Source of the DNA: Xenococcaceae cyanobacterium MO_188.B32 | GTDB lineage: Bacteria > Cyanobacteriota > Cyanobacteriia > Cyanobacteriales > Xenococcaceae | DNA: 64,000 bases | Assembly (NCBI GenBank): GCA_030065635.1 | Contig: JASJDJ010000005.1 | Span: 1 to 64,000 of the forward strand | Reading direction: 5' to 3' | Notes under the pieces: generated by a model | What the model saw: the letters and a program-made list of their open reading frames with translations, nothing else | What the model was told of the DNA's origin: nothing | Database searches by the model: none | Made by a program: the position numbers and the translations under genes | In this document: positions 41,082 to 43,563 of the stretch, in pieces | Position numbering within the stretch: the first letter of the stretch is position 1 | How the letters are laid out: each line of letters starts with the position of its first letter

Positions 41082-41084
41082 GTG

Positions 41085-41170
41085 GGGTATCAAGAGTTCG
41101 GAGTTCGGAGTTCGGAGTTCGGAGTGACTTTCGGTAGTCGCTTCGCGTACGGAGTTCGGAGTTCAGGATT
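41085..41170. repeat. GTTCGGA tandem repeat
   Basis: AGAGTTCGGAGTTCGGAGTT units, a GTAGTCGCTTCGCGTACG insert, then more GTTCGGA units. The same repeat family is at 9655-9692, 34078-34130 and 59690-59706. It fills the gap before mltG and leaves a spurious in-frame extension of that gene. Confidence 0.8.
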
Positions 41171-41195
41171 TCAGAAGTTCACTATTAAGTTTTTT

Positions 41196-42269
41196 ATGAA
41201 TTCTGCATCAAAAAAAGCTAAATTTCCCATTTTTCGTAGTTTACTTGTTTTAATTCTTGGATTAGGTATTTGGCAAAGTTGGTTTTGGTGGCAGCGAGTT
41301 AATGCTCCAGTTTTAGGCGCAAAAGGAACTAATATTAGTGCTAAACCAACTCAGTTTACGGTTTCTTCAGGAACCCCAGGTCAACAAATTGGCAGAGAAT
41401 TAGCAAAAGCTGGTTTAATTAGTTCGACAGATGCTTGGAAATTGTGGGTTTGGTGGAGACAAAAACAAGACCCTCAAGGAGGTTTTAAGGCAGGAACGTA
41501 TCTTATTTCTCCTCAAGACTCTTTAGCGACGATCGCTGATAAAATTTGGCGGGGAGAGTTGATGCAAACTACCTTTACTATCCCCGAGGGTTGGTCAATT
41601 CGCGAAATGGCCAACTATTTTGAATCTATTGGCTATTTTAGTGCCGATGATTTTGTCGCAGCAGCCAGTAAAATTGACTATGATAAGTATCCGTGGTTGC
41701 CAGCAAATTTACCTCACTTAGAAGGATTTCTCTATCCAGATACTTATAAAATTACTAGCGATCGCATTAACAATCCTCAAGCCATTATTGAGGTGATGTT
41801 AACTCAATTTCAACAAGATGCTCTTCCTGTCTATCAACAAGCACAAACTCAATTAAGTCTAATGGAATGGGTAACTCTTGCTAGTATTGTCGAGAAAGAA
41901 TCTGTAGTAGGAGAAGAACGTCGTTTAATTGCGGGAGTCTTTACTTCTAGACTCCAACGAGGAATGAGATTAGAATCCGACCCTACTGTAGAATATGCCT
42001 TAGGAATTAAACAAACTGCCGATCGCCCTCTTACTTATAAACAAGTAGGTACTCCTGCCCCTCACAATACTTATGTTAATACTGGTTTGCCTCCAACCCC
42101 CATCGCCAGCCCAGGACTTGCTAGCCTCAAAGCTACTCTTAATCCTGAAAGTACGGACTATTTATTTTTTGTCGCTCGTTACGATGGTACTCATGTTTTT
42201 AGTAAAACCCTAGCAGAACATGTGGCAGCTACCAAAAGAATTCGTCGAGAAAGACAACAGAGAAATTAG
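41196..42269 (+). CDS. mltG: Endolytic peptidoglycan transglycosylase MltG (YceG)
   Basis: A 357-aa protein. One N-terminal membrane helix (FRSLLVLILGLGIWQSWFWW) precedes a LysM-like segment (SSGTPGQQIGRELAKAGLI) and the YceG catalytic domain with LEGFLYPDTY, ASIVEKESV (the catalytic Glu), LESDPTVEYALG and YNTYVNTGLPPTPIASPG-like NTYVNTGLPPTPIASPGLA. It cuts nascent glycan strands. The start ATG 41196 is chosen because the upstream 38 codons are made only of the GTTCGGA repeat. The gene order DUF3727-mltG is typical for cyanobacteria. Confidence 0.94.
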   Translation: MNSASKKAKFPIFRSLLVLILGLGIWQSWFWWQRVNAPVLGAKGTNISAKPTQFTVSSGTPGQQIGRELAKAGLISSTDAWKLWVWWRQKQDPQGGFKAGTYLISPQDSLATIADKIWRGELMQTTFTIPEGWSIREMANYFESIGYFSADDFVAAASKIDYDKYPWLPANLPHLEGFLYPDTYKITSDRINNPQAIIEVMLTQFQQDALPVYQQAQTQLSLMEWVTLASIVEKESVVGEERRLIAGVFTSRLQRGMRLESDPTVEYALGIKQTADRPLTYKQVGTPAPHNTYVNTGLPPTPIASPGLASLKATLNPESTDYLFFVARYDGTHVFSKTLAEHVAATKRIRRERQQRN

Positions 42270-42314
42270 CAATTACTAGTACATAAGTTCTTTGCTACTT
42301 ATGTACTAAGGCCT

Positions 42315-42407
42315 TTTCCCGGAAAGAATATACCACCTTTCATAGATGGCTCCAGTTACGCAGCATTAGTTTTACCTTTTTAAAGGTGGTATATTCTTTC
42401 TTGGAAA
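42315..42407. repeat. Large inverted repeat, terminator or MITE-like
   Basis: An 18-bp perfect inverted repeat (AAAGAATATACCACCTTT and its complement), extended to ~26 bp with few mismatches, encloses ~40 bases. It follows mltG by ~45 bases. It can fold into a long hairpin and may end mltG transcription, but its length and AT-rich arms also suit a small mobile palindromic element. Confidence 0.6.
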
Positions 42408-42456
42408 TCACCTAAAATCTAGCGCAACAAATGTTTACATACTATAATTCAAAATA

Positions 42457-42485
42457 TTGACATTTTGCACAAATCCGCATATCAT
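42457..42485 (+). promoter_or_regulatory. Consensus-type promoter of the predicted small RNA
   Basis: A perfect -35 box TTGACA (42457-42462), a 17-base spacer and a -10 box TATCAT (42480-42485, one mismatch to TATAAT). The predicted start is near 42491-42493. No protein gene follows in this direction for several kb; a terminator hairpin follows within 70 bases. Confidence 0.72.
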
Positions 42486-42490
42486 TTCAA

Positions 42491-42558
42491 GCGTGTGAGG
42501 AGCGAACCAGTTAAGGGAGCCGAGACGAAACACGGCAAGTCGTCGGCTCCCTTTCTGA
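42491..42558 (+). ncRNA. Predicted small RNA (~65 nt)
   Basis: A short transcript is predicted from the promoter at 42457-42485 to the terminator hairpin at 42513-42553. Its 5' end (GCGUGUGAGGAGCGAACC) is unpaired and contains GUGUGAGGAG, the exact complement of CUCCUCACAC, the core I remember for the cyanobacterial RNA Yfr1. The hairpin loop holds CGAAACACGG. Size, layout and intergenic setting resemble the abundant Yfr-type RNAs of cyanobacteria (perhaps a Yfr2-like member), but family membership cannot be settled by eye. No open reading frame is present. Confidence 0.6.
42513..42557 (+). terminator. Rho-independent terminator of the small RNA
   Basis: AAGGGAGCCGA and TCGGCTCCCTT pair perfectly (11 bp, with a further GACG/CGTC pairing inside), followed by TTCT. 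Strong GC-rich stem. It may also stop read-through from mltG. Confidence 0.7.
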
Positions 42559-42582
42559 TCTAAAAATACGATCGCTTAACAG

Positions 42583-43563
42583 TTATCGGTGACTAGAGAG
42601 AAAGGCTTCTACTTCTGCTGAAGTTGGTTGAGCAGCGATCGCCCCTGGCTTGGTAGTGGTTAATCCGCCTACGGCACAGGCATAGGTGACTATTTCTCGG
42701 GCAACTTTAGCATCGCTTAGGCTACTAATTTTCTTTTGGCAGAGTTGATGGATAAAACCCGCTAAAAAAGCATCTCCTGCACCAGTAGTATCTCGTACCG
42801 AGACAGAAAAAGGGGTAACTTTACCTTCGTTGTCACTGAGGCAATAGCTAACTGCTGCATCTCCTCCACTGACTAATACTCCTTCCACAGAATCGAGACG
42901 ATAGGCGATCGCCCCTGCATCGGTAGTATTAAAGAGCCATTGAGCTTCTTCTTCGGCAAGTTTGAGAAAATCAATTTTTGACCATAATTTTTCGATTAAC
43001 GGTAAAGCTTCTCGTTCATTGTGCCAAAACATGGGTCGCCAATTTACATCGAGTATTACTTTAATCTCATATTCTTCTGCTAACTCTAAGGCTCGAAAAA
43101 CGGCAGTTCTCGTCTGTAAATAAGCTAGTTCTAAAGTACCTATCACCAAAAATTCTGCTTCTAAAAACAGTTTAGTTGGCAAATTTTCTGCTGATAGATA
43201 GGCATCAGCAAATTCATTCGGAAGGCGATCGCCAAAACCAGCAAAAGAGCGATCGCCTTCTGGTGAGCGAAGGACGTATACTTGTCTTGTGGGGGCAAGG
43301 GGATGCCGTTGCACCCCAACAGTATTCACACCTATAGAGTCTAGGAGTTCTACCAATTTATTACCCGGTTCATCTTGACCGACACAGCCAATAAAAGCAG
43401 AAGGAGTACCTAACTTGACTAAAGCACAAGCAACATTGGCAGGTGCACCTCCTGGATAGGGAGTCCAAGACTGTACTTCTTCTAAAGAACATCCTACTCG
43501 ATCGGCAAGACAATCAAACAATATTTCTCCTAGACAGATAACGCGAGTCTGGGGATTATTCAC
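42583..43563 (-). CDS. PfkB-family sugar kinase (fructokinase-like)
   Basis: A 326-aa ribokinase-superfamily kinase. It has the N-terminal substrate site (GEILFDCLADRVG, TPYPGGAPANVACALVKLG), FIGCVGQDEPGN, and the C-terminal catalytic motif DTTGAGDAFLAGF with the base Asp. Fructose is the most likely substrate by resemblance to bacterial fructokinases, giving fructose 6-phosphate; other hexoses are possible. No sugar transporter or regulator is adjacent. Confidence 0.88.
   Translation of the reverse strand: MNNPQTRVICLGEILFDCLADRVGCSLEEVQSWTPYPGGAPANVACALVKLGTPSAFIGCVGQDEPGNKLVELLDSIGVNTVGVQRHPLAPTRQVYVLRSPEGDRSFAGFGDRLPNEFADAYLSAENLPTKLFLEAEFLVIGTLELAYLQTRTAVFRALELAEEYEIKVILDVNWRPMFWHNEREALPLIEKLWSKIDFLKLAEEEAQWLFNTTDAGAIAYRLDSVEGVLVSGGDAAVSYCLSDNEGKVTPFSVSVRDTTGAGDAFLAGFIHQLCQKKISSLSDAKVAREIVTYACAVGGLTTTKPGAIAAQPTSAEVEAFLSSHR

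Follow-up and report, generated by a model that had tools for sequence, protein, structure and literature searches.

A predicted Yfr2-type small RNA with complementarity to Yfr1 in a Xenococcaceae cyanobacterium belongs to a widely conserved branch of the family

The window analysed here, a 64,000-nucleotide stretch of Xenococcaceae cyanobacterium MO_188.B32, carries a predicted small RNA which, judged by its sequence, is a member of the known Yfr2/Cyano-1 family. This copy belongs to a distinct and widely conserved branch of the family, recognized by its sequence model in 105 of the 386 phylum genomes sampled. We consider it probable that the locus is a free-standing Yfr2-family gene whose product sequesters the small RNA Yfr1, a decoy role that appears as the most likely function in our analysis. 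Few small RNAs are retained across cyanobacteria, and Yfr1 and Yfr2 are two of them.

A Yfr2-type RNA between convergent genes

In a permissive scan, the Rfam model RF01701 (Cyano-1) matched over its positions 1–69 of 69 with 38.5 bits against a gathering cut-off of 41, which is a detection threshold and not a biological feature; the E-value was 3e-5 in the local scan and 1.2e-4 for the whole genome. Because its score lies below this cut-off, the RNA is missed by a default scan, and Rfam at gathering thresholds reported nothing in the window. The names Cyano-1 and Yfr2 are tied together in PMC8400943, and the family consists of abundant transcripts of ~65–80 nt. The anatomy given for Yfr2 in PMC2662882 comprises a 5′ end that is open and conserved, a loop of 12 nt and, close to it, a bulge. 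All three are present here: the open stretch GUGUGAGG(AG) lies at 42493–42502, with GUGUGAGG invariant in 30/30 aligned relatives, the long stem carries the 12-nt central loop GAAACACGGCAA (42527–42538), and G42542 is bulged beside the three loop-closing pairs, matching the Rfam consensus line. As for membership of Yfr1 (RF01116), the core CUCCUCACAC is not on the transcribed strand; the window has its complement and Yfr1 lies elsewhere.

The preliminary description of this locus had proposed a Yfr2-like RNA, which the RF01701 score bears out (in other species, 6 of the 37 places of the same lineage exceed the cut-off). It had also called the RNA unannotated, which is overstated: the family is already described, and the score lies below a database threshold. 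The promoter it had reported, TTGACA-17-TATCAT at 42457–42485, was found again with 11 of 12 consensus matches, and it is the sole site in the window, on both strands, that combines an exact TTGACA with at least 11/12. The sequence GTGTGAGGAG, for which base composition predicts ~0.07 copies per 64 kb, occupies 42493–42502, 7 nt past the −10 box. The promoter is a consensus match from which the RNA is presumably transcribed, with a start at ~42492/42493 deduced from promoter spacing and a likely end at ~42558–42562.

Folded from 42492, the RNA reaches −28.5 kcal/mol (shuffles −18.7 ± 3; z −3.3), and the fold predicts a weak 3-bp 5′ helix around the otherwise open 5′ stretch. The 11-bp hairpin described earlier exists as 11 pairs of a larger hairpin, extended by the bulged G42542, three more pairs and the 12-nt loop. 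The "perfect terminator" of the same description had to be abandoned: the tail after the stem is TTTCTGAT, its T tract is weak, the T run lies partly within the stem, and the hairpin and tail are not listed by the terminator scan. On the sequence evidence, the first observation nevertheless mostly holds and its interpretation appears right in substance. The features of the locus are collected in Table 1.

Table 1. Coordinates of the predicted small RNA gene and of its neighbours in the window
Feature	Position	Strand	Basis or remark
−35 hexamer TTGACA	42457..42462	+	Motif scan; best site at least 9/12 in all 30 aligned branch relatives
−10 hexamer TATCAT	42480..42485	+	17-nt spacer; GTGTG begins 7 nt 3′ of the hexamer
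Predicted Yfr2-type small RNA	42492..42562	+	RF01701 match 42489–42559; alignment of the branch
GUGUGAGGAG, complementary to the Yfr1 core	42493..42502	+	Sequence; Yfr1 found in this genome
GAAC, block specific to the branch and able to pair with Yfr1 GUUC	42504..42507	+	C42503 opposite A is a mismatch
CAG, 5′ arm of the 3-bp outer helix with CUG 42555–42557	42508..42510	+	Fold; covariation
Main stem: 11 pairs, bulged G42542, 3 pairs, 12-nt loop GAAACACGGCAA 42527–42538	42513..42553	+	Fold; covariation
Upstream gene mltG (YceG-like, PF02618)	41082..42269	+	
Convergent downstream gene, PfkB-family carbohydrate kinase (PF00294)	42583..43563	−	PfkB downstream at 6/30 branch loci

A MITE-like inverted-repeat element of ~108 bp with long inverted arms lies outside the small RNA, at 42306–42413, ~45 bp 5′ of its −35 box. 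It has 31 local matches at ~16 places in the genome (88–99% identity), and its arm sequence is missing from the sampled locus of a genus mate. Rfam matches to MIR828, mir-547 and similar models at 42306–42416 were rejected, since they correspond to this MITE-like hairpin.

Conservation and setting of the branch

Conservation in relatives had been named beforehand as a point on which the proposal could fail, and it was found at both scales searched. A DNA search with a 146-base query located the sequence at 37 places in 36 of the 60 relatives; RF01701 scored 6 of these places above its cut-off and 29 below, and left 2 unreported. In the alignment of 30 of the 37 places, GTGTGAGG is invariant and the loop is near-invariant, varying at few positions, with insertions of 1–3 nt between the motifs. 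The stem and the outer 3-bp helix are paired in 99.6% of cells and show double changes at 8 of 16 pairs. None of 500 shuffles, and no slid version, gave as high a covariation score or share of paired cells. The covariance model R1, built from this 30-sequence alignment, was run on 386 phylum genomes, with which the training genomes overlap. It matched 130 genomes at E 0.01 or better, and 236 unlisted genomes were without a match. Its scores are split in two: 107 places (105 genomes) reach 71 bits or more, and those that follow score no higher than 62 bits. Among the listed matches of family f41, whose genome size (1.6–3.0 Mb) leads us to take it as the marine picocyanobacteria, the best E-value was 2.2e-6, well short of the branch. 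A single copy is usual; two genomes (G134 and G282) have two branch copies each, at 91 bits or more.

The 30 branch loci were compared with 31 other Yfr2 copies (30 loci from the RF01701 search in relatives and the second copy of this genome). The core GTGTGAGGAG is followed by CGAAC in 28/30 branch loci and by TAAGT in 22/31 other copies. A DALR-domain gene upstream and/or a convergent HAD hydrolase downstream accompanies 22/30 branch loci (DALR 19, HAD 15), and DALR, HAD, PfkB, MltG and YlqD were found near 0/31 other copies, in loci of ~3 kb or less. At the window locus PfkB and YlqD are kept downstream, but the upstream gene is mltG. This gene, which occurs at 2/30 branch loci, is also present in G001, the sole genus mate sampled. 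At least 118 named branch records were retrieved by pattern, a set rich in Nostoc and not independent; among those listed whose flanks were long enough, DALR lies upstream in 60 of 91 and HAD downstream in 52 of 96. The best −35/−10 site scores at least 9/12 in 30/30 branch loci, with a mean of 10.1, and the mean for the 31 others is 7.7, against a baseline of ~6.5 of 12 for mononucleotide shuffles. The others for the most part have no strong promoter of the sigma-70 type. The loop GAAACACGGCAA was tried as a branch marker and rejected, as it is also present in 20/31 other copies.

Names were listed for 80 records, and all but one are labelled cyanobacteria. The exception (JAAUUT010000080.1), a MAG labelled Candidatus Gracilibacteria, has the branch small RNA, and an error of binning or naming is probable.

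Many of the other Yfr2 copies were seen by eye to share TGTCAC(T) ~45–50 nt 5′ of the core (L264, L273, L275, L277, L279, L280 and others), possibly an activator site replacing the −35 box. Some form tandem arrays with two to four members (G001 C105:3189–3593, G044 C29:118871–119890, G037 C9:51848–52079). PMC6778093 describes yfr2 genes as lying at unconserved loci. We tentatively suggest that cyanobacteria other than the small-genome marine group could have two kinds of Yfr2: one with a conserved position and a strong promoter, acting as a standing Yfr1 decoy over 10 + 4 bp, and mobile copies without a strong −35, perhaps under activator control.

Pairing with Yfr1 and proposed function

Yfr1 was detected computationally in 58 of the 60 relatives and in this genome (C258:26711–26774, RF01116 55.2 bits), where a thioredoxin-like (trxA-like) frame, read by eye, lies next to or after it. 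The complementarity to the Yfr1 core noted in the preliminary description is real: the Yfr1 of this genome has CTCCTCACAC. Yfr1 carries GUUCACUCCUCACAC in 84 of 87 genomes examined; opposite it, the branch sequence GUGUGAGGAGCGAAC can form 10 bp and, beyond an A·C mismatch, a further 4 bp. Of 76 branch sequences (74 genomes), a set including five that depart from the initial core pattern (G190, G367, G164, G204 and G039), 62 have GAAC at precisely this offset, as do 0/31 other Yfr2 copies. The mismatch position varies among the 76 (C 69, A 3, G 2, T 2). Most changes in the core preserve pairing: GUGUGGGGAG, found in four sequences, pairs by G·U, and the core of G006 has gained one bulged base and kept the full fit. 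Where Yfr1 is without GUUC, in 3 genomes, GAAC is lost too, and elsewhere it is lost in 10/72 (p 0.004, kinship uncorrected). The losses in those 3 genomes are joint losses, not compensations; seven of the 10 others fall in family f33, six of these in one genus (g44). No compensatory change is visible because the GUUC of Yfr1 is almost invariant (84/87).

Net pairing of the window RNA with its own Yfr1 was predicted at −16.4 kcal/mol, against −3.6 ± 2.6 for shuffles, 0/195 of which were as low; for the second Yfr2 of the genome the prediction was −19.9 kcal/mol, below all 182 shuffles. These values were computed over 17-nt windows with the costs of opening included, a method adopted after a negative result with whole-molecule RNAduplex, which gave long loopy duplexes and no excess over shuffles (net 5.99, 99/500 as low; second Yfr2 495/500). 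The GAAC arm contributes 5.9 kcal/mol of duplex energy (15-mer versus 10-mer) at a cost in opening energy; since opening the 5′ end of the small RNA and the end of the Yfr1 hairpin costs ~8 kcal/mol, the arm need not add net affinity. Both Yfr2 copies are thus predicted to be strongly complementary to Yfr1, and despite its extra arm the window copy is not the better predicted binder. Genome-wide, the 10-mer GTGTGAGGAG occurs 8 times against 6.6 expected from base composition, no clear excess. It lies 8 nt 5′ of the start codon in two squalene/phytoene-synthase-like genes (L002 966–986; L006 1490–1510, minus strand), which are candidate Yfr1 targets.

From these data we infer that the gene is transcribed, that its product acts as a decoy in this organism and that the GAAC arm is used. 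The sigma-70-type promoter would produce an RNA of ~67–71 nt whose 5′ end would display GUGUGAGGAG-C-GAAC, a mimic of the ribosome-binding sites covered by Yfr1. Pairing with 5′-GUUC-A-CUCCUCACAC-3′ of Yfr1, over 10 bp, one A·C mismatch and 4 bp, would sequester Yfr1 and free the mRNAs that it represses, and the covarying hairpin would stabilise the small RNA and probably end transcription. Decoy action has been shown by others for the Yfr2 of Prochlorococcus: Yfr1 is captured in a pull-down with Yfr2, and when the two are co-expressed in E. coli a reporter repressed by Yfr1 is restored (PMC6778093). In Nostoc, Yfr2 binds Yfr1 in gel shift (in vitro) and is raised by nitrogen deprivation (PMC6974561).

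A Yfr2-family RNA could also have a main job other than Yfr1 control, its loop GAAACACGGCAA or its 5′ end acting on mRNAs or binding a protein. The loop is conserved nearly as well as the Yfr1-pairing motif in the 30-sequence alignment, 302 mRNAs were enriched with Yfr2 in Prochlorococcus (PMC6778093), and protein binding through GGA motifs and the bulge has been suggested for Yfr2 (PMC2662882). We regard this reading as unlikely, though worth keeping in mind, and it leaves the GAAC–GUUC match and the co-occurrence with Yfr1 unexplained. It is very improbable that the hairpin is a mere shared terminator of the convergent mltG and pfkB with no independent RNA: it does lie between convergent genes, and the downstream gene is convergent in many species too, but a terminator has no need for a 5′ block that never varies, a 12-nt loop that hardly does, or a promoter ~7 nt upstream (30/30 relatives), the T tract is poor, and mltG is present at so few branch loci. 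A short peptide gene can practically be dismissed. No 40-aa reading frame overlaps the small RNA; just two frames of 32 aa do, and the one at 42465–42563 (+) would speak for such a gene, but it begins 5′ of the predicted transcript, and the changes track stem pairing, with the 1–3 nt insertions falling between motifs. The Yfr1 decoy remains our preferred reading.

Significance and comparison with known RNAs

Cyano-1 is above the cut-off in 49 of the 60 relatives; the other 11 have sub-threshold matches only, all of them copies of the window branch, and would appear Yfr2-negative in default Rfam annotation. The branch in this way explains apparent absences of Yfr2 in database scans. Its recurring locus, a promoter type of its own and the longer fit to Yfr1 would also make it an orthologous handle for genetics. 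The recurrent locus, the kind of promoter, the GAAC arm and the threshold artefact were not found stated in the accessible parts of PMC6778093, PMC2662882, PMC4734099, PMC6974561, PMC8400943 and PMC7368042, and a literature text search with the motif letters returned unrelated matches only. The RNA itself belongs to a known kind. What is of interest is where its branch is located, how it is promoted and how far it can pair with Yfr1, and we do not claim the first description of these features.

Yfr1 (RF01116) is the complementary partner of the window RNA and carries the complementary motif; the window RNA is not itself a Yfr1. With Yfr2/Cyano-1 (RF01701) it shares the 5′ GUGUGAGGAG, the 12-nt GAAAC..GG loop, the long stem bulged three pairs from the loop, a promoter of its own and an RNA length of ~70 nt (the last two here predicted). 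The branch differs in having CGAAC(C)AG after the core, in the stem (CCGAGAC/GUCGUCGG, whereas RF01701 has GGGGUC/GACUCCC), and in its strong −35, its recurrent gene neighbourhood and scores that mostly fall just below the Rfam cut-off. The second Yfr2 of the same genome (C106:9907–9982, RF01701 52.5 bits) matches the window copy in its core and in the class of its loop (GAAACAUGGCAA); unlike that copy, it has UAAGU after the core, lacks a strong −35 and stands among different neighbours.
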